64,000 nt of DNA from Betaproteobacteria bacterium (GTDB lineage Bacteria > Pseudomonadota > Gammaproteobacteria > Burkholderiales > Rhodocyclaceae). The translations under genes were made by a program, and so were the position numbers. Location of the stretch: the NCBI GenBank assembly GCA_028065725.1, contig JAPTVL010000435.1, positions 6,775 to 70,774 on the forward strand, read 5' to 3'. Shown here piece after piece: positions 3,483-64,000 of the stretch (the first letter of the stretch is position 1; each line of letters starts with the position of its first letter). Under the pieces are notes generated by a model. That model did not search any database. It saw nothing but the letters and a program-made list of their open reading frames with translations, and was not told where the DNA came from.

Positions 3483-3920
3483 TCAGGCGGCGCTGCACTT
3501 GCCGATCGCCAGGGCCGGCGTGTTTTCGCCCTCGCGCGACATGCCGCCCTTGTCGCCGTCGCTCCAGTAGCCGATCGGGTAGAAATAGAGGAAGCGCAGA
3601 TTCCGGTTGTTGAAGCGGATATCGAACACGCCGGAACAGAACAGGTTGCCGGCTTCGTTGAAGTCCGTTTCGCAGATCGCGCCGGGCCGGCTGTCGCCGA
3701 CTTCCTTGGCTTCCCAGGCATGCGACTTCTGCTTGCTGCGGGCGATGACGAGTTTTTTCTCGGAGCGGAAGTCGGCACTCTTCCATTTCTTCTTGCCGCC
3801 ATCGAAGGAGAAGCCCGTGGTCAGCTCGGCCACGCAAACGTAGGAATCGGCGGCGCTCGCATGGAACGTCAGAAGCATGCCAAACAGGAAAGCGCCGAAA
3901 CAGCGGGCCGGTGACATCAT
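3483..3920 (-). CDS. Secreted protein of unknown function
   Basis: A 145-residue protein with a clear signal peptide (hydrophobic 'FLFGMLLTF' followed by 'HASAADS', cleavage likely after ASA). The mature part contains three or four cysteines ('YVCVAEL', 'AICETDF', 'LFCSGV', 'IGKCSAA'), which could form disulfides in the periplasm. I do not recognise the family. Of three closely spaced ATGs the one used has GGGAG seven bases upstream; an ATG six bases earlier would sit directly on that ribosome binding site. It is flanked by intergenic DNA and does not appear to be in an operon. Confidence 0.75.
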   Translation of the reverse strand: MMSPARCFGAFLFGMLLTFHASAADSYVCVAELTTGFSFDGGKKKWKSADFRSEKKLVIARSKQKSHAWEAKEVGDSRPGAICETDFNEAGNLFCSGVFDIRFNNRNLRFLYFYPIGYWSDGDKGGMSREGENTPALAIGKCSAA

Positions 3921-6432: not shown

Positions 6433-10017
<3,585 letters not shown>

Positions 10018-54725: not shown

Positions 54726-54800
54726 CGCCTCGCTATTGGTAGCGACTTCGGCGCATACTCCATCCGCATTGATGCAAATCATCGCGGGCGCCATGGCAAA

Positions 54801-54826
54801 TCGCCGTCCCGCCAGCGCCGACTTTC
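54801..54826 (-). repeat. Dispersed 26-bp motif, copy 6, upstream of cas3
   Basis: On the minus strand GAAAGTCGGCGCTGG followed by CGGGACGGCGA, 58 bp upstream of the cas3 start and at the boundary between the host genes and the CRISPR-Cas locus. Confidence 0.5.
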
Positions 54827-54884
54827 GGTGAAAAATGTTTGGCAGGCTCGTCTGGTGAGCCTTGCGATAGTCAAGATAGGGAGC

Positions 54885-57188
54885 ATGACTACGACCTACT
54901 TTGCACACAGCGCAAACACGACAGGCAAGTGGCACCGGCTTAACGCGCATCTCGAAAGCGTTGCCGGCCTTGCTCGCGGGTTTGCCGATAGGGCGCCATG
55001 GGCGGACGAAGCGCATCTTGCCGGCTTGCTGCACGATCTTGGCAAATATGCGGACCGCTTTCAGGCGCGGCTGCATGGCAAGGATGCGGGACTCGATCAT
55101 TGGTCGCAGGGTGCGTGGCTGGCCCTCTTGAAGCATCAAGCCAAGGCGGCGACGCTGGCAATTCAGGGACATCACGTTGGTTTGCGACAGGGGAATGCAT
55201 CGGCCTTGCGAGGACTGAATCCGGCGAACTTGCAACCCAGAACACGAGACGGACTCGTTCTTTCCGACCCGGACGCCGGTGCATTGGAACGTCGCGCCAT
55301 GGGCGATGGCCTACAATTCCAGAGCCCCGAAGTAACGGCGCTGGCGCGTGGCAACGACAGCTCGCGACCGGTGGCAGCGATGCTCGATGTCCGCCTGTTG
55401 TTCTCTTGCTTGGTCGATGCCGATTTTCTCGATACCGAAGCGCATTTCAACGGTGGCGCGGACGGGAAGCGCTACCGCGAGACGGGGTTGCCGCTGGACG
55501 CCGGTCAGGCGCTGGCAGCGCTCGACCGCTACATGGCCGACAAAGTTCGCGGTGGCCGGGAGTTGATCGCCAACGTCAAGCAAGCCCGCGATTCACTGTG
55601 GGATTCCGTGGGTGTGGCGGCGGAGCGCGCTCCCGGCACCTTTACGCTGACTGCCGCGACCGGCTCCGGCAAAACCCTCGCTATGCTGCGCTTTGCCTTG
55701 CTGCACGCCACCCGCCACCGGTTGCGCCGTATCGTATTGGCCGTGCCGTTTCTAACTGTCATCGAGCAAACCGCACGTATCTACCGCGAGGTGTTTGCCG
55801 ATTTTCCCGAGAATTTTGTTCTCGAACATCACAGTCTGGCCGGGCTGGGCGAGGAGTACGGACAGTCCGATGCCGAAGCCGCCCAGGAACGCCAGCGCCG
55901 ATTGCTTGCCGAGAACTGGGATGCGCCCATCATTATTACCACTAACGTGCAATTGCTGGAGTCCCTGTTCTCGAATCGGCCGTCGAGTTGCCGCAAGCTG
56001 CACCGGCTGATGGGCTCCGCAATCCTGTTCGACGAGGCGCAAAGCCTGCCCCAGCATCTTGCCGTGCCGACGCTTGCCGCGCTTTCGCATCTATCGGCGA
56101 CCTATCGCACCAGCGTGGTATTTGCCACCGCGACCCAGCCCGCTTTCGAGAGCCTCGATGCCGAAGTGCGAAAGCAGGCAAGTACAGGCTGGAGGCCGGA
56201 GGAGGCAGTCCCGGCACATGCCAAGCTGTTTGCGGCCTTGCAGCGTGTCCGCGTGCGCTGGACTACGCCCGGTGAAAAACTGGACTGGCATGAAATCGCC
56301 GGGCGTGTTCGCGAAGAACCGCAAGTTCTCGTGGTCTGCAATCTGAAGCGCCATGCGCTGACTTTGCTCGATGAACTGAAGGGCGAAGACGGTGTATTCC
56401 ACCTTTCCACCAACCTATGCGCCGAACATCGCCGTGCCGTATTGCAAACGGTGCGCGAGCGCCTGCAGGCAAGCCAAAGCTGCCGCCTGATTTCGACGCA
56501 ATGCGTCGAGGCGGGTGTCGATGTCGACTTTCCTACCGTGTACCGCGCCTTTGCTCCGTTGGAGGCGATTGCCCAGGCGGCGGGCCGATGCAATCGAGAA
56601 GGACGCCTGAACCAAGCGGGTCGCTTGGGCGACGTTGTTGTTTTCGAGCCTGATGAAGAGGGCGATTGGCGGCGCAGCTATCCGACACGCGCCTACTTCC
56701 AGGCCGCTCAAGTCACGCGCGGCCTGCTGGCGCAAAGCGATGGTCTGGACATTGGCGACCCGGAGACTTTCCGCCGCTACTACCGCGCACTCTACGACGC
56801 CAGCAATCCAGCCAGCCAGAGCCCGGAATTGATGGAAGCATTCCTCGCCATGGATTTCGTCGAGGTGGCGAAACGCTATCGCCTGATCGAACAGGGAACC
56901 ATTCAAGTGTTGATGCCGTGGGCAGCCCGCCGACAGGAATTCGATCAACTTCGTTCCGAAGCGGAAGCCGATGGCATTTCGGTGGGATGGATGCGCCGCG
57001 CCCAGGGCTTGGCGGTCAGCGTTTATCGCACTGCCGCTGGTACGCCCGAATGGGCGATTCCGGCAAGACTGCGCTGGAACAAGGCCGGCGGGGGAGTCTC
57101 CGACGAGTGGTTCATCCTCGAAGGCGACTACTATGACGAAACAATTGGCTTGAATCCGCCCGACGGACCACGGGTATTCATCGCATGA
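54885..57188 (+). CDS. cas3: CRISPR-associated helicase/nuclease Cas3 (type I-C)
   Basis: A 767-residue protein. The N-terminal HD nuclease has 'WHRLNAHLESVAGLA' and the His-Asp pair in 'AHLAGLLHDLGKYADRFQAR', with a further His pair at 'IQGHHVGL'. The superfamily 2 helicase follows: Walker A 'TAATGSGKTLAMLRF', DExD/H-type 'LFDEAQSLP', motif III 'VFATATQP' and motif VI 'QAAGRCNREG'. It is recruited by Cascade to unwind and degrade the target. The ATG just before 'TTTYFAHS' was chosen because the family starts there; an in-frame GTG 57 bases upstream is less likely. Confidence 0.96.
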   Translation: MTTTYFAHSANTTGKWHRLNAHLESVAGLARGFADRAPWADEAHLAGLLHDLGKYADRFQARLHGKDAGLDHWSQGAWLALLKHQAKAATLAIQGHHVGLRQGNASALRGLNPANLQPRTRDGLVLSDPDAGALERRAMGDGLQFQSPEVTALARGNDSSRPVAAMLDVRLLFSCLVDADFLDTEAHFNGGADGKRYRETGLPLDAGQALAALDRYMADKVRGGRELIANVKQARDSLWDSVGVAAERAPGTFTLTAATGSGKTLAMLRFALLHATRHRLRRIVLAVPFLTVIEQTARIYREVFADFPENFVLEHHSLAGLGEEYGQSDAEAAQERQRRLLAENWDAPIIITTNVQLLESLFSNRPSSCRKLHRLMGSAILFDEAQSLPQHLAVPTLAALSHLSATYRTSVVFATATQPAFESLDAEVRKQASTGWRPEEAVPAHAKLFAALQRVRVRWTTPGEKLDWHEIAGRVREEPQVLVVCNLKRHALTLLDELKGEDGVFHLSTNLCAEHRRAVLQTVRERLQASQSCRLISTQCVEAGVDVDFPTVYRAFAPLEAIAQAAGRCNREGRLNQAGRLGDVVVFEPDEEGDWRRSYPTRAYFQAAQVTRGLLAQSDGLDIGDPETFRRYYRALYDASNPASQSPELMEAFLAMDFVEVAKRYRLIEQGTIQVLMPWAARRQEFDQLRSEAEADGISVGWMRRAQGLAVSVYRTAAGTPEWAIPARLRWNKAGGGVSDEWFILEGDYYDETIGLNPPDGPRVFIA

Positions 57189-57197
57189 GGAGGAACG

Positions 57198-57932
57198 ATG
57201 GCGAATGATGTGCATACGCTCGATGTCTGGGGCGACCTGGCCTGCTTCACCCGGCCGGAAATGAAGGTCGAGCGCTTTTCCTATCCGGTCATTACGCCCT
57301 CGGCGGCGCGCGGCATTTTCGACGCGATCTACTGGGATGGCCGTCGCCAGGGCGCGGAAATCCGGCCCTACTTCCATTGGCAGATAGCGCGCATCGAAGT
57401 GTTGGAGATGCCGCGCTTCATTGCCTTGCGGCGCAACGAGGTCAAGGGCCGTGTGCCGGGCGCGGCCACGCTCAATCAGTGGATGAGCGGAACCGTGGAA
57501 CCCGAGCCGCTATGGGCCGATGGTGGCGAGGACACCACGGGCCGCACCCAGCGCCAGACCATGGCGCTGAAGAACGTCCGCTATCGCCTCACGGCACGCA
57601 TGGTGCCGCGCGCTGGGCAGGAATGGGGCAAGCTCAATGCCTGCTTCCTGCGTCGCGCCCGCGCCGGCAAATGTTTTCAGCAACCCTATTTCGGTTGTCG
57701 GGAGTTTCCCGCGTTCTTCGAATACGTCGATGACCCCGGCGCCCGGCCGGTCGCGCTTGTGCCGCTGGATCAGCATCTCGGCTTCATGCTCTACGACGTC
57801 TTCGACCTGCGCAAGGATGTCATCAAGGACAACGACAAACCCTTTATCACCCTGTTTGATGCGCACATCCGGGGCGGCGTGCTCGACGTGCCGCCCTTCG
57901 AACACGCGGCGGTGAGAAAGCCGGAGCGCTGA
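57198..57932 (+). CDS. cas5c: Cas5c (Cas5d), pre-crRNA processing subunit
   Basis: A 244-residue RAMP protein beginning with the conserved 'VWGDLACFTRPEMKVERFSY' and 'PVITPSAARGIFDAIYW'. In type I-C there is no Cas6, and Cas5c itself cuts the repeat hairpin; the conserved Tyr/Lys/His set is consistent with this but cannot be assigned here with certainty. AGGAGG precedes the ATG. It starts 9 bases after cas3. Confidence 0.95.
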   Translation: MANDVHTLDVWGDLACFTRPEMKVERFSYPVITPSAARGIFDAIYWDGRRQGAEIRPYFHWQIARIEVLEMPRFIALRRNEVKGRVPGAATLNQWMSGTVEPEPLWADGGEDTTGRTQRQTMALKNVRYRLTARMVPRAGQEWGKLNACFLRRARAGKCFQQPYFGCREFPAFFEYVDDPGARPVALVPLDQHLGFMLYDVFDLRKDVIKDNDKPFITLFDAHIRGGVLDVPPFEHAAVRKPER

Positions 57933-57934
57933 TC

Positions 57935-59650
57935 ATGCTGCAACGATTGATCGAGTACGCACACGCTCAAGTACCACTGTCCGAGCCGGGTTTCACAGTG
58001 CGTGGTATCCGCTGGCGCATCGACATAGGAGTCGACGGCAAATTGCTCGGCATCATTCCTTCCACCAACGACAAGGGCGATGAACGTTGGGGTTGCCCCG
58101 AGATGCACGACATGAATTCCGGCGGCAAGGCCCATTTCCTGATCGACAATTTGAAGACGGCGATTTGCCTGGATGCAGACGCCAAGGATGGGCCGCGCCA
58201 CGAGTTTTACCTTGCCCGCATCCGCGAGGCTGCCGAAGCGATCCCCGGTTTGCGCCCCCTGCGGAAGTTCCTTGAGGTCGATTCCCAATTGGCGGCGCTC
58301 AGGGCGACCTTGGCGGCTCCGCCACACAAGGCCGGCGCCAACGACAACCTCGAATGGCGTATCGACGGTCGCGATCCATTGCTCGATCCGGCAGTCGTTG
58401 AGTGGTGGCGGCAATGGAGGAAGAACGATCTTGGCGCAGAAGCTCCGGCCAGCGCCGACATGATCTGTTTCGGCACGGGAACCCTGGCCCCTGCCATGGA
58501 AACGCAGCCCAAGGTTATGCGCTTGCCCGGTGGTCAAGGCGCTGGGGATTCCCTGATCGGGTTCGACAAGGCGGCATTTGCTTCATTCGGCTTGAAGAAA
58601 TCGGCCAATGCGGCTGTTTCCGAAACCGCCGCGCGGCAGTATGTCGACGCCCTCAATCATTTGGTGCGTCATCGCTCGAAGAAACTTGCCGACAGTTTGG
58701 CGTTGCACTGGTACAAAGGTGCGGTCGAGGACAAGGACGATGTCCTGGACTGGCTCAACGATCCGCCTGAAGTGGCGGAAGCTTCGGCGGCTATCGCTGC
58801 GCGCCGGTTGTTCGACGCCATCCGCGGTGGCCAACGACCAGACCTTGGCAACGCCGAGTATTACGCGCTCACCTTGTCCGGCATGTCCGGGCGCGTGATG
58901 GTGCGCGATTGGATGGAAGGACGTTTCGAGCAACTCGTCGGCCATATTGCCGGCTGGTTCGATCATCTCGCCATCACGGCGCGTGATGGGCAGGGATTGG
59001 CGCGCGATCCAAAGTTCATGGCGGTATGCGGTGCGCTGGTTCGAGACCTGAAGGATTTTCCTGCGCCCACGTCCGCCACGCTCTGGAAAGTGGCTGCGCA
59101 GGGCCTGCCGATTCCCCAACCGTTGATGGCCCAGGCGCTGGCGCGCTTCCGCACCGATCTGGTCGACAAGGACCAACCGCCGTTCAACCACGCCCGCATG
59201 GGCCTCATCAAAGCCTATTTCATTCGCCGTAAACCTGGAGGTGACATTCACATGACTACTGGTTACAACCCAAATCATCCGGCTGCCGCCTACCACTGCG
59301 GCGGATTGCTGGCCGTCCTTGCCAACCTGCAACGTGCCGCTCTCGGCGACGTTGGTGCCGGTGTGGTGCAACGCTTCTACGCCGCCGCCAGCCAGACACC
59401 CGGGCTGGTTATTGGTCGGCTCGTCGGCAACGCACGCAATCATCTCGCCAAGCTCGAACCGGGACTTGCCTGGTGGTACGAAGAACGCATTGCCGAGCTG
59501 ATGAATCGCTTCGGCGATGCTGTGCCGCGCATTCTCGACCTCGAAGGCCAAGGCTTGTTCGCGCTCGGCTATTACCAGAAACTCGCCGAGCTGCGTCCCG
59601 GCCCCAAATCCACCGCTTACATCATCAACGAACAGGGAGCAAAGCAATGA
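57935..59650 (+). CDS. cas8c: Cas8c, large subunit of type I-C Cascade
   Basis: A 571-residue Csd1 family protein ('[20 protein letters not shown]', '[12 protein letters not shown]', '[20 protein letters not shown]', '[15 protein letters not shown]'). It recognises the protospacer-adjacent motif and helps open target DNA. It starts 2 bases after cas5c. Its last 132 codons contain an independent in-frame start (59252) with a strong Shine-Dalgarno that should make the small subunit Cas11c. Confidence 0.95.
59252..59650 (+). CDS. cas11c: Cas11c small subunit from an internal start in cas8c
   Basis: Within cas8c, GGAGGTGA (59237-59244), a near-perfect complement of the 16S rRNA 3' end, lies 7 bases before an ATG that is in frame with cas8c (codon 440). 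Translation gives 132 residues, from '[20 protein letters not shown]' to '[13 protein letters not shown]', mostly helical. Independent translation of Cas11c from the 3' part of cas8c is established for type I-C systems, and the length and position fit. It is not visible as a separate open frame. Confidence 0.85.
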
Positions 59651-60636
59651 GCGCCATCCAGAACCGCTACGAATTTCTCTATCTTTTCGACTGTGAGAAC
59701 GGCAACCCCAACGGCGATCCCGACGCCGGCAACAGTCCGCGTATCGATCCCGAAGACATGCACGGGCTGGTGTCTGACGTAGCCCCAAAGCGCCGCGTGC
59801 GCAATTATGTCCAAACGGCGAGGGGTAACACGTCGCCGTTCGCTATCTTCGTCGAGCACTCAACCAACTTGAACAGGCCGATAGCTCTTGCTCACGAGCA
59901 GGCAAATGGCGAAATACCTGCAAAAGCGACGAAGAGCAAAGTGAAAAATGCGCGCGATTGGATGTGCGGGACCTTCTTCGATGTGCGTACTTTCGGCGCG
60001 GTGATGAGCACAGGCGCCAATGCAGGCCAGGTGCGCGGACCGGTACAGTTCTCGTTTTCTCGCTCCATCGATCCAATTCTGCCGATGGATATCGGGATTA
60101 CCCGTGTAGCGGATGCAAATCTGACCAAGAAGAAGCACGGCGTAGAGGAAAAAGATGGCATGGGCAGCGCACAACTAATGGATCTTGAAAGCCAGGCACC
60201 AGAAGACACACTCCGCACCATGGGCCGCAAGGCGCTTATTCCGTATGGTCTGTATGCGATGAAAGGATTTGTTTCTGCACATCTCGCGGCAGGTACTGGC
60301 TTTTCCGACGATGACCTCAACCATCTCTGGCGAGCGCTGCTCAACATGTGGGACCACGACCGTTCCGCCAGCAAGGGCGTAATGTCCTGTCGCGGCCTCT
60401 ACGTGTTCAAGCACGTCGGCACCGATACCGACCCGGTGCAGCGCGTGCGCCAAGTCATGCTCGGTTGCGCGCCGGCGCAGCGCCTGTTGGACTTCAGCAG
60501 TCACCATCGCGAGATTCCCAATAGCATCATCGGCATTCACAAGACCATCGGCGGTTCGCCACGTTCGTTTGCCGATTACGCGGTGACCGTGCATCGGGAT
60601 CGTCTGCCGGCCGGAGTCGAACTGATTACCCCATAG
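59647..60636 (+). CDS. cas7c: Cas7c (Csd2), backbone subunit of Cascade
   Basis: A 329-residue RAMP protein starting with '[20 protein letters not shown]' and '[20 protein letters not shown]', diagnostic for Csd2, with '[20 protein letters not shown]' in the core and '[20 protein letters not shown]' at the end. Several copies line the crRNA. It overlaps the cas8c/cas11c stop by 4 bases (ATGA). The next gene follows after only 6 bases and is not a normal cas gene. Confidence 0.95.
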
Positions 60637-60642
60637 GCGACC

Positions 60643-61698
60643 ATGAATGCCCAAGCAAAAGCTCCTTCTGGATTGACCCAGCCGCCCACCGGCTACGCCG
60701 ACTGGCTGGCCGATCTGAAGTCGCGCATCCACACTGCCCAGCAGCGCGCGGCGCTGGCGGTAAACCGCGAGCTGGTGCTGCTCTATTGGCAGATCGGGCG
60801 TGACATCCTGGAGCGGCAGGCGCGGCAGGGTTGGGGGGCCAAGGTGATCGAGCGGCTGGCCCACGATCTGCGCACGGCCTTTCCCGACATGAAAGGGTTT
60901 TCGCGCGCCAACCTGATGTATATGCGGGCCTTTGCCGAGGCCTGGCCCGATGCCGAAATTGTCCAACAGGCTGTTGGACAATTGCCCTGGGGCCACAATC
61001 TGGTGCTGTTGACCCGGCTGAAAGAGCCCCGGTTGCGTTTGGCCTACGCGCAGCGCGCCCTCCGGCACGGCTGGTCGCGCAACGTGCTGAACATCCACGT
61101 CGAAACGCGGCTGCTGGAGCGTGAGGGCCACGCCGTCACCAACTTCGAGGCACAACTTCCCGCGCCGCAATCCGACTTGGCCCGCGACACGCTGAAAGAC
61201 CCCTACCTGTTCGACTTCCTCGGTGTCGGCAAGGAGGCCGACGAACGCGCCATCGAATCCGCCATCGTCGAGCACATCACCCGCTTCCTGCTCGAACTGG
61301 GCGCTGGCTTCGCCTACGTCGGGCGGCAGGTGCCCATCGAGGTGGGCGGCGACGATTTCTTCATCGATCTGCTGTTCTACCATCTCAAGCTGCGCTGCTA
61401 TGTGGTGGTCGAACTCAAGGCCGGCCCGTTCAAGCCCGAGCATGCGGGGCAACTGAATTTCTACCTGAGCGCGGTGGATGCCCAGGTGAAGGCAGAGCAG
61501 GACCATCCCACCATCGGCCTGCTGTTGTGCAAGAGCCAGAATCGCGTGGTCGCCGAGTACGCGCTGCGCGGTTCCAGCAAGCCGATCGGCGTCGCTGAAT
61601 ACCAGCTTGTCGAAGCCTTGCCGGCCGAACTCCAGACCAGCCTGCCGAGTATCGAGCAGATCGAGCGGGAACTGGGTGGCGAGGAATCGGGGTCATGA
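60643..61698 (+). CDS. DUF1016 (YhcG-like) PD-(D/E)XK nuclease inserted in the cas operon
   Basis: A 351-residue protein with the DUF1016 N-terminal helical/winged part ('LLYWQIGRDILERQARQGWG', 'GFSRANLMYMRAFAEAW', 'VGQLPWGHNLVLL') and a C-terminal PD-(D/E)XK nuclease fold: Asp in 'GGDDFFIDLLFYHLKL', Glu-x-Lys in 'YVVVELKAG' and the following 'FKPEHAGQLNFYLSAVD'. All catalytic positions appear intact. It begins 6 bases after cas7c and overlaps cas4 by 4 bases (ATGA), so it is translated with the cas genes. DUF1016 proteins are common in defence islands, but I know of no standard place for them in type I-C operons. The role is unknown. Confidence 0.88.
   Translation: MNAQAKAPSGLTQPPTGYADWLADLKSRIHTAQQRAALAVNRELVLLYWQIGRDILERQARQGWGAKVIERLAHDLRTAFPDMKGFSRANLMYMRAFAEAWPDAEIVQQAVGQLPWGHNLVLLTRLKEPRLRLAYAQRALRHGWSRNVLNIHVETRLLEREGHAVTNFEAQLPAPQSDLARDTLKDPYLFDFLGVGKEADERAIESAIVEHITRFLLELGAGFAYVGRQVPIEVGGDDFFIDLLFYHLKLRCYVVVELKAGPFKPEHAGQLNFYLSAVDAQVKAEQDHPTIGLLLCKSQNRVVAEYALRGSSKPIGVAEYQLVEALPAELQTSLPSIEQIERELGGEESGS
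60957..60983. repeat. 27-bp near-perfect palindrome inside the nuclease gene
   Basis: Arms of 13 bases, AATTGTCCAACAG and its exact reverse complement CTGTTGGACAATT, are separated by one G. In frame it encodes the loop around 'IVQQAVGQLP'. In mRNA it would form a strong hairpin between the effector and adaptation halves of the operon. Confidence 0.8.
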
Positions 61699-62315
61699 CC
61701 GACGATTTCGTCAACCTCTCCGCCCTCAACCAGTTTGCCTACTGCCCTCGCCGCTGCGGGCTGATCTATCAGGAAGGCGAGTTCGCGGACAACCTGCATA
61801 CGGCACGCGGCAACGCCGAGCATGCGCGGGTTGATCGGGTGGATCACGCCGTCACGCGCGAAGGCGCGCGGGTGGAATACGCGCTGCCGATCTGGAACGA
61901 CCGTATTGGCCTCATCGGAAAATGTGACGTCGTCGAATTCTGGCCCGACGGCGCGGTGTATCCCGTTGAGTACAAGCACGGCCCGAAGCGCAAATGGCTG
62001 AACGACGACCTGCAACTGGCGGGACAGGCCCTGTGCCTCGAAGAAATGCTGGCTCGGCCCGTGCCGCGCGGCGCGATCTACCACGTCAGCAGCCGCCATC
62101 GCCGCGAAATAGAGATCACGGATGGCTTGCGGCACGGGGTGGAAGAAACCGCGGCCGCGATTCGCGCCATGGTCGAATCGGGCGTCCTGCCGCCGCCGCT
62201 CAGCGACGCGCGCTGCCGGGAGTGTTCGCTCAAGTCGCGCTGCCAGCCCGAACTGGTTGGTACGGCCGACAGGCGGCGCAGCGTCGCACGAACTCTTTTC
62301 GAGGTGGCGCCGTGA
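61695..62315 (+). CDS. cas4: Cas4 nuclease (type I-C)
   Basis: A 206-residue RecB-like nuclease. The Fe-S cluster cysteines are in 'FAYCPRRCGLIYQEG' and 'CRECSLKSRCQ'; the nuclease core has 'HARVDRVDH', 'IGKCDVVEFW' and 'YPVEYKHGPKRKW'. It trims prespacers and checks the PAM before integration by Cas1-Cas2. It starts in the stop of the DUF1016 gene and overlaps cas1 by 4 bases (GTGA). Confidence 0.95.
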   Translation: MTDDFVNLSALNQFAYCPRRCGLIYQEGEFADNLHTARGNAEHARVDRVDHAVTREGARVEYALPIWNDRIGLIGKCDVVEFWPDGAVYPVEYKHGPKRKWLNDDLQLAGQALCLEEMLARPVPRGAIYHVSSRHRREIEITDGLRHGVEETAAAIRAMVESGVLPPPLSDARCRECSLKSRCQPELVGTADRRRSVARTLFEVAP

Positions 62316-63352
62316 GCATCCAGACCGTGGAAAACACCGTCTACATCATGGCGCAGGGCGCCTATGCTCATCTCGACAACGACACCCTGCGCATCGACAT
62401 CGAGCATGAAACGAAGCTGCGCGTGCCGCTGCATCATGTCGGGGCGCTGGTCTGCTTCGGCAATGTTCTCGTTTCGCCCTTCCTGATGCATCGCTGCGCA
62501 GATGAAGGAAAAGCCGTGGTGCTCCTGTCGCAGTCGGGTCGCTTCAAGGCGCGGCTCGAAGGCCCGGTTTCCGGCAATGTGCTGCTGCGCCAGGCGCAAC
62601 ATCGCCGTCTCGCCAGCGCCGACTTTTGCCTGGCTGTCGCCAAGTCGTGCATTGCCGGCAAGTTGAAGAACTGCCGGCAGGTGCTGCAGCGCGGCGCACG
62701 CGAAAGCGGTCGCGAAGACGACAGCGTGCCGCTGGCGGAAACCGCGGACGAACTCGGTCGCACATTGGCGCGGCTCGAACATGCGCCCGATCTCGATGCC
62801 GTGCGCGGCATCGAGGGCGACGCCGCCAAGCGCTACTTTGCCGTACTGGGTTTGGTCATGCGCGCCGATGCGCGCGCCGCCTTCGCGATGAACGGCCGCA
62901 CCCGGCGGCCGCCGCTGGATCGCATGAATGCGCTGCTTTCCTTTCTTTATGCGATGTTGATGAACGACGTTCGTTCGGCGGTGGAAAGCGTTGGCCTCGA
63001 TCCGCAGATCGGCTACCTGCATGCGGTGCGGCCGGGGCGCGCGGCGGTGGCGCTCGATCTGATGGAGGAATTTCGCCCGCTGCTGGCGGATCGTCTGGCG
63101 CTCACGCTGATCAATCGGCGGCAGATCGCTGCCGACGACTTTGTCGAACGCCCCGGCGGCGCCGTGACGCTTGACGAGGATGCGCGCAAGGCAGTCGTTT
63201 CCGCCTACCAGGAGCGCAAGCAGGAAACGCTGATGCATCCGCTGCTGGATTCGAGTGTGGCTCTCGGGCTGGCGCCCTTCATCCAGGCGCGCTTGCTCGC
63301 CCGTGCCCTGCGGGGCGACGTCGAGTCCTACCTTCCTTTCTGTCCGAAATGA
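62312..63352 (+). CDS. cas1: Cas1 integrase (type I-C)
   Basis: A 346-residue protein starting at GTG with '[20 protein letters not shown]', the type I-C form. The metal-binding Glu is in '[14 protein letters not shown]', the His in '[20 protein letters not shown]', and the acidic residue in '[17 protein letters not shown]'. It integrates spacers at the leader end with Cas2. A copy of the dispersed 26-bp motif lies at 62602-62627 on the opposite strand. Confidence 0.96.
62602..62627 (-). repeat. Dispersed 26-bp motif inside cas1
   Basis: On the strand opposite cas1: AAAAGTCGGCGCTGG followed by CGAGACGGCGA. It matches copy 6 upstream of cas3 in 24 of 26 positions. It falls in a poorly conserved part of cas1 encoding '[10 protein letters not shown]'. 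Confidence 0.45.
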
Positions 63353-63645
63353 GCATGCTGGTCATCGTCAGCTACGACGTTTCCACCGAAACCAAGGCCG
63401 GCCGCCGTCGCTTGCGGCGCGTGGCGCGGGTATGCGAAGGCATGGGCCAGCGGGTGCAGAAATCGGTATTCGAATGCAAGGTCGACGCCATGCAGTTCGA
63501 GGAACTCGAACGCTGCCTGCTGGCGGAAATTGACGCGGAAGAGGACTGTCTGCGCTTCTACCGTTTGACTGAGCCCGTTGAATTGCACGTGCGCGAGTAT
63601 GGCAAATTCAAGGCAGTGGATTTTGAAGGGCCGCTGGTCCTATGA
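63349..63645 (+). CDS. cas2: Cas2 (type I-C)
   Basis: A 98-residue ferredoxin-like protein, '[20 protein letters not shown]' then '[19 protein letters not shown]', with the conserved Asp in 'SYDV'. It forms the core of the Cas1-Cas2 integration complex. It overlaps cas1 by 4 bases and is followed by the leader of the array. Confidence 0.96.
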
Positions 63646-63823: not shown

Positions 63824-64000
63824 GACGCCCGGCCCGCGAGGGCCGGGCGAGGATTGAAACCTGCTCGGACGGCTTGAACAACCCCGTCGCCGGCAGACGC
63901 CCGGCCCGCGAGGGCCGGGCGAGGATTGAAACGGGCACTGCAGCCGCGGCACCATAGCCGGCGACGAGACGCCCGGCCCGCGAGGGCCGGGCGAGGATTG
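63824..64000 (+). CRISPR. Type I-C CRISPR array, first three repeats and two spacers; continues beyond the window
   Basis: Direct repeats of 37 bp start at 63824, 63896 and 63968 (the last cut after 33 bases), with two 35-bp spacers (63861-63895 and 63933-63967). The repeats are identical. Each contains a perfect 10-bp stem, CGCCCGGCCC and GGGCCGGGCG, around a GCGA loop, and ends ATTGAAAC. Cleavage by Cas5c at the 3' base of the stem would leave the 11-base handle AGGATTGAAAC, normal for type I-C. The first repeat adjoins the leader, so these are the newest spacers. Confidence 0.97.

Follow-up and report, generated by a model that had tools for sequence, protein, structure and literature searches.

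The subject of this analysis is a gene at positions 60643 to 61698 of a stretch of 64,000 nucleotides (nt) from contig JAPTVL010000435.1 of a Betaproteobacteria bacterium (Rhodocyclaceae); the whole stretch of DNA analysed is called the window here. The gene encodes a DUF1016/YhcG protein, a predicted PD-(D/E)XK nuclease, and lies within a locus of clustered regularly interspaced short palindromic repeats (CRISPR) that is a complete type I-C system, with cas3, cas5c, cas8c, cas7c, cas4, cas1, cas2 and an array. An earlier note on this DNA had placed the gene between cas7c and cas4, at the border of the effector and adaptation modules, and the open reading frame (ORF), the Pfam matches and the neighbouring genes agree with that placement. 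The features are as follows (E, E-value; pLDDT, predicted local distance difference test score).

54885 to 57188, plus strand: cas3 of I-C type (PADLOC Cas3c, E 5.7e-186; alternative GTG start at 54828)
57198 to 57932, plus strand: cas5c (Pfam Cas_Cas5d, E 4.1e-25; PADLOC Cas5c)
57935 to 59650, plus strand: cas8c/csd1 (Pfam Cas_Csd1, E 6.6e-97; TIGR01863 above cut-off)
59647 to 60636, plus strand: cas7c/csd2 (TIGR02589 above cut-off; 4-nt overlap with cas8c if the ATG at 59647 is the start)
60643 to 61698, plus strand: DUF1016/YhcG gene, predicted PD-(D/E)XK nuclease, 351 amino acids, ATG start (PF17761 and PF06250)
60715 to 61122, plus strand: DUF1016_N domain (residues 25-160), all-helical in the AlphaFold model, with block mean pLDDT of 69-94 over residues 11-160
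61186 to 61647, plus strand: YhcG_C PD-(D/E)XK domain (residues 182-335, Pfam), modelled as a helix, three strands, a helix and a strand at moderate to low pLDDT
61366 to 61368, plus strand: predicted catalytic Asp D242 (in FFIDLLF), the same in 61 of 61 alignment rows
61411 to 61419, plus strand: predicted catalytic motif E257-L-K259 (in VVELKAG), with K259 in 61 of 61 rows and position 257 Glu in 49 and Asp in 12
61695 to 62315, plus strand: cas4 (TIGR00372, E 3.9e-33; ATGA overlap with the DUF1016 gene)
62312 to 63352, plus strand: cas1 (PADLOC Cas1c, E 3.4e-149)
63349 to 63645, plus strand: cas2 (Pfam CRISPR_Cas2, E 1.5e-23)
63824 to 64000, plus strand: CRISPR array, three direct repeats at 72-nt spacing, running past the end of the window

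The cas7c stop codon ends at 60636, 6 nt before the DUF1016 gene, whose end shares ATGA (61695-61698) with the start of cas4, and both spacings reported in the earlier note are confirmed by these coordinates. The note read such coupling as the sign of a link with the cas genes. The gene is indeed built into the operon, but all seven of its gene borders are close, ranging from a 4-nt overlap to a 9-nt gap, so the tightness is not special to DUF1016, and the overlaps are equalled in restriction operons, as described below.

The window protein is confirmed as a full-length member of the DUF1016/YhcG family (PF17761 plus PF06250, COG4804), with which it shares both domains, its full length and the active-site residues. 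Both domains score above their Pfam cut-offs, DUF1016_N with 147.8 bits against 32.8 (E 2.6e-43) and YhcG_C with 213.1 bits against 32.5 (E 2.3e-63). The Asp and Glu-x-Lys that had been described as intact are D242, E257 and K259, conserved in a 61-row alignment of family members; together with Q270 they are the PD-(D/E)XK active-site residues present in the protein, and D242, K259, Q270 and Y274 are invariant in all rows. A PD-(D/E)XK core is expected to carry its Asp on the second strand and its E-x-K on the third, and the AlphaFold model fits this, placing D242 and E257-K259 on the second and third strands of the C-terminal half at lower confidence. Mean pLDDT over this half was 61.1 in a first, poor model and 65.7 in a second, which suffices for the order of the elements and not for a comparison of folds. 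No sequence relative of the protein was found among solved structures at E 0.1. The gene is under purifying selection, the ratio of nonsynonymous to synonymous rates (omega) being 0.072, 0.094, 0.126 and 0.121 against the copies of loci L001, L002, L003 and L005; the mosaic copy of L298 gives 0.235. Among the close protein relatives, those with a name are from metagenome-assembled genomes of Rhodocyclaceae and Sulfuritalea (P0004-P0006).

Type I-C loci for comparison were gathered by Cas8c, in 34 of 369 genomes at class level, 21 of 300 at order level and 23 of 398 at phylum level; no further locus came from Cas8c searches of a single family (4 genomes) and of two orders with 2 and 36 genomes. 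Sixty I-C regions were compared, of which 52 show cas7 as well as cas4. An intact DUF1016 gene occurs in none of the 60, and none of 30 Cas1e loci has a DUF1016 match within flanks of about 1.5 kb. Far from being present in most loci, DUF1016 is not a core or standard type I-C component, just as the earlier note had supposed. A statement of complete absence from the 60 regions proved too plain, since a recount brought up a low-scoring fragment in L171: upstream of cas3, at 3517-3788 (oriented with cas7 on the plus strand), lies a decayed N-terminal piece of DUF1016 with a stop, and the space between cas7 and cas4 in that locus holds RhuM. The six I-C loci with effector genes most like those of the window (L136-L141) have no DUF1016 either; cas4 lies within about 80 nt of cas7 in L136, L138, L140 and L141, and L137 and L139 have other inserts there.

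At least four further DUF1016 genes are CRISPR-linked, in L298 and L297 (both I-C), L002 (I-E) and L264 (I-F). Recurrence, which the earlier note had proposed to look for in unrelated genomes, is thus found in other genomes and in types I-C, I-E and I-F. The idea that the window is a unique case had to be given up: I-C Cas queries showed no cas gene at 79 of the 80 loci whose DUF1016 is closest in the genome collection (71-88% identity to that of the window), L062 giving only a distant cas3-like match, and the neighbouring genes then revealed L002 as type I-E, with DUF1016 between cas6e and cas1e and an array period of 61 nt. I-C and I-E queries matched no cas gene in another 30 DUF1016 loci (L230-L259).

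A scan of one family (141 genomes, 46 with a DUF1016 match, 30 loci) found two copies in I-C loci. L298 reads cas3-cas7 fusion, DUF433 gene, DUF1016, cas4 (with ATGA overlap), cas1, cas2; the fusion, at 8151-8684 of the reverse complement, joins cas3 residues 6-134 in frame to cas7 residues 271-331. Its DUF1016 is a mosaic in which residues ~76-200 resemble the L038 allele and the flanks resemble the window allele, and the mosaic middle may represent exchange of a specificity or partner region. L297 is a divergent I-C locus with the order cas8c-cas7-cas3-DUF1016-cas4-cas1-cas2. Its DUF1016 is 89% identical to that of the window, against 52% for cas4, 66% for cas1 and 71% for cas2, so DUF1016 moved separately from its neighbours. 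An apparent internal stop in the DUF1016 of L267/L297 was the gene's own stop codon. Within the 369 genomes, 85 DUF1016 places lay above the cut-off and 98 were listed, and their coordinates were matched by eye against Cas1 hits; among the Cas1 matches listed there was at least one further link, the type I-F locus L264, where a distant DUF1016 gene preceded by a WYL gene lies about 300 nt upstream of cas1f. The L264 protein appears under the name Candidatus Tenderia electrophaga (P0121).

Relatives of the window gene also occupy operons of quite different defence systems. Among the 80 nearest, 42 have close same-strand neighbours with HsdM/S/R-like or methylase matches, and 49 terminate in ATGA, GTGA or TTGA. 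An Aeromonas media plasmid carries hsdM-DUF1016-hsdS with 4-nt overlaps on both sides and RhuM in the same cluster, a Polaromonas plasmid carries methylase-DUF1016-helicase-GIY-YIG with overlaps of 4 and 1 nt, and two (L260 and L262) of four DUF1016 loci on viral contigs have restriction-type clusters. DUF1016 adjoins McrBC-like genes in L003, a Septu-like pair in L007 and an Eco57I-type methylase in L010, and two plasmid copies keep other company, one lying before an integrase-like gene and one alone. A PADLOC call of 'MADS' beside L038 was rejected, the genes there being an ABC ATPase and an FtsX-like permease according to Pfam. The type I restriction operons with DUF1016 and RhuM have the same coupled placement as the window, and RhuM also fills the L171 slot; they differ in the partner, which is restriction-modification there and CRISPR-Cas in the window.

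Relatives share such overlaps with restriction genes, so the 4-nt overlap does not argue for a cas-specific link; close coupling to neighbours is typical of the DUF1016 family and does not mark a role specific to cas. The earlier note had held that freely changing neighbours would speak against its proposal, and this is partly what we see, given the type I restriction, methylase-helicase-GIY, McrBC-like and Septu-like partners. The dedicated CRISPR roles that it offered (prespacer processing, back-up of Cas3 or a defence triggered by Cascade) are unsupported so far, with no intact copy in the 60 regions and with neighbours that vary.

The place in which the gene sits goes beyond what that note considered. 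The effector/adaptation border serves as a recurrent cargo slot, which in relatives is nearly empty or taken by other genes; it often holds toxin-antitoxin (TA) genes, and it is a site of module swaps. A gap of at least 180 nt between neighbouring cas genes was counted as an insert. Such gaps separate cas7 and cas4 in 16 of the 52 I-C loci (17 were flagged, and L172 was removed for a split cas7 match); the other 35 loci have less than 180 nt. The cas4-cas1 border has such gaps in 6 of 52 loci, and none occur between cas5 and cas8 (0/59), cas8 and cas7 (0/59) or cas1 and cas2 (0/51). Toxin or antitoxin families named in Pfam (ParE, HicA, Unstab_antitox) score above cut-off in 10 of the 16 cas7-cas4 inserts. 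The others comprise two with DUF433 and/or DUF5615 only, which we take to have a TA role, one with DUF4258, one with RhuM, one with a transposase, and that of L137, which was counted as an insert and lay outside the Pfam scan. Five of the six cas4-cas1 inserts have toxin/antitoxin families or PIN or HepT-like domains, and that of L136 gave no match.

A comparable picture holds in type I-E. The distance from cas6e to cas1e, measured between the ends of tblastn matches (the cas6e match of L212 being short), is at least 650 nt in 10 and at most 100 nt in 8 of the 18 loci with both genes in view. This count left out four of L200-L221, which had no cas6e in view, and L222-L229, which were too divergent or partial; adding L224 and L226 (cas6e, 18-nt gap) would make it 10 of 20. 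Six of the ten long inserts were scanned and hold PIN, nucleotidyltransferase, UPF0175/DUF3368 or DUF5615 families.

TA-type border genes were noted in the I-C loci L144, L149-L151, L154, L157, L160, L161, L164, L182, L186 and L190 and in the I-E loci L204, L207, L208, L210, L212 and L217. Their families, at the effector/adaptation or the cas4/cas1 border, are ParE, HicA, PIN, PemK, Phd and nucleotidyltransferase. The genes are co-directional with the cas genes and tightly spaced in L149, L150, L186 and L190, and lie on the opposite strand in L144, L151 and L154.

Given these occupants, DUF1016 could be a guardian that replaces the usual TA genes of the slot, is restrained by an unseen RNA or by one of the Cas components, and harms the cell or stops an infection through suicide once CRISPR-Cas has been lost or beaten; we rate this option as fairly unlikely. 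The 10 of 16 cas7-cas4 inserts with toxin or antitoxin families and the six scanned I-E inserts point in this direction, as does the DUF433 gene that adjoins DUF1016 in L298. A 2012 paper, whose passages on the subject also describe typical antitoxins as absent from immunity systems, proposed that immunity and suicide genes are coupled (PMC3506569); the present loci resemble that proposal in having harmful or defensive accessory genes in a cas locus, and here the border occupants include antitoxin families. CreTA, which is described as involving an RNA toxin, is alike in placing an accessory harmful or defensive gene in a cas locus (PMC10097628), and PMC3150331 describes TA systems as defence-island neighbours that gave rise to Cas2. 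However, there is no antitoxin-like ORF beside the window gene, and no room for one, with 6 nt on one side and an overlap on the other. L298, moreover, kept DUF1016 without most effector genes, so the effector is not the restraint there, and many DUF1016 relatives lie outside cas loci.

The same border is where modules have been exchanged. A quick tree of Cas7 groups the window with L136-L141 (100% by the Shimodaira-Hasegawa-like approximate likelihood ratio test, SH-aLRT), whereas Cas1 of the same 51 I-C loci rejects that group (approximately unbiased test, p-AU 9.6e-7). Since the Cas7 and Cas1 trees conflict, the effector and adaptation modules were swapped at the border (59647-63645 of the window, compared with L136-L141); exchange of effector modules in situ beside adaptation genes is described in PMC6452270. 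A border that recombines in this way could simply tolerate inserts, and DUF1016 could be a neutral passenger tied to CRISPR-Cas by shared transcription only. The hotspot, the module exchange, the freely changing neighbours of the family and the decayed fragment upstream of cas3 in L171 are what such a passenger would leave behind. We nevertheless regard this as quite improbable, since purifying selection, the conserved active site and a divergence shared with cas4 in two genomes argue that the gene is kept for something, and tight coupling recurs.

We lean, with modest confidence, towards the window DUF1016 being an autonomous, mobile accessory defence nuclease that is co-expressed from the cargo slot. 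The protein would be a DNase of the PD-(D/E)XK type, helical in its N-terminal domain, which may gain reliable co-expression by taking a tightly coupled seat in the operons of other defence systems. Its seat in the window would be the slot between the effector and adaptation modules of the type I-C operon. From there it would probably add a second line of defence to Cascade-Cas3 by cutting foreign DNA, or host DNA in an abortive mode, and it would be dispensable both for interference and for spacer acquisition. Such a nuclease would account for the active site, the selection, the varied partner operons and the cargo slot; its activity, trigger and target, and its independence from Cas proteins, are predictions.

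Several points weigh against this reading. In 17 of 52 I-C loci, cas3 and cas5 are also at least 180 nt apart, so wide gaps are not unique to the adaptation border. PADLOC profiles PDC-S02 (E 1.4e-165) and PDLC01464, labelled 'PD_DExK, CAS associated' (E 9.9e-41), match the window protein, and because of the latter label the family has already been seen beside cas genes. Nor is the CRISPR link in the I-C lineage of the window brand new, given a synonymous divergence (dS) from L298 of 0.60 for DUF1016 beside 0.68 for cas4, 0.81 for cas1 and 1.18 for cas2; judged from these sequences, and with the mosaicism of L298 kept in mind, the two DUF1016 copies probably share descent. A tree of 100 DUF1016 rows, with context changes scored against 22 rows of other loci, gives three changes for the four close CRISPR-linked copies, two without the mosaic L298 and one for the window plus L297. 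Three separate recruitments would therefore be too strong a conclusion; the tree is no proof of repeated recruitment and does not distinguish gains from losses. Each of the five CRISPR-linked copies found, that of the window included, lies on the 5' side of the adaptation genes, a pattern that exceeds what a free rider must show and that an autonomous nuclease alone leaves unexplained. Finally, L298 has lost most effector genes and retained DUF433-DUF1016-cas4-cas1-cas2.

The last two points bear on the possibility that DUF1016 makes or trims prespacers for Cas4-Cas1-Cas2. The position 5' of adaptation genes in types I-C, I-E and I-F, the retention with those genes after effector loss and the 4-nt overlap with cas4 in both the window and L298 are all consistent with it, and the 5' pattern, which may only reflect the position of the slot, keeps an adaptation role alive. 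We consider this role improbable all the same: the 60 I-C regions have no intact copy and the 30 Cas1e loci no match, type I-C already has Cas4, and no adaptation gene is seen in the restriction operons that house close relatives. A broader version, in which a mobile nuclease is coupled to I-C, I-E and I-F adaptation modules, whether for prespacer processing or as an abort switch on the Cas1-Cas2 side, and the border is a dedicated docking site that trades second-layer defence genes, also seems unlikely to us.

From the perspective of earlier work, the PD-(D/E)XK fold of the DUF1016/YhcG family was predicted in 2005, in an account whose passages on the family report a single type I restriction cluster and otherwise no conserved neighbourhood (PMC1189080); here, cas operons of three subtypes contain or adjoin DUF1016. 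The bare association of DUF1016 with cas genes was already known from the CAS-associated PADLOC profile. PDC-S02 and PDLC01464 are models only, without a mechanism or a placement at the module border. Titles and opening lines of abstracts on DUF1016, COG4804 and PDC-S02 name no placement in a cas operon, which is no proof of its absence from print. What was a curiosity of one operon thus becomes a testable rule, in which the joint between effector and adaptation modules is a loading dock for TA genes and for a widespread family of predicted nucleases whose genes also lie inside restriction operons. A nuclease that functions alongside either partner system would amount to a general second line of defence, and one that acts together with Cas1-Cas4 to a new adaptation factor.

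A minor observation concerns the other end of the operon. A 26-nt stretch just 5' of cas3 in the window (54800-54825) matches, with one mismatch, a stretch inside cas1 (62601-62626), and a stretch similar to it also lies upstream of cas3 in L298.
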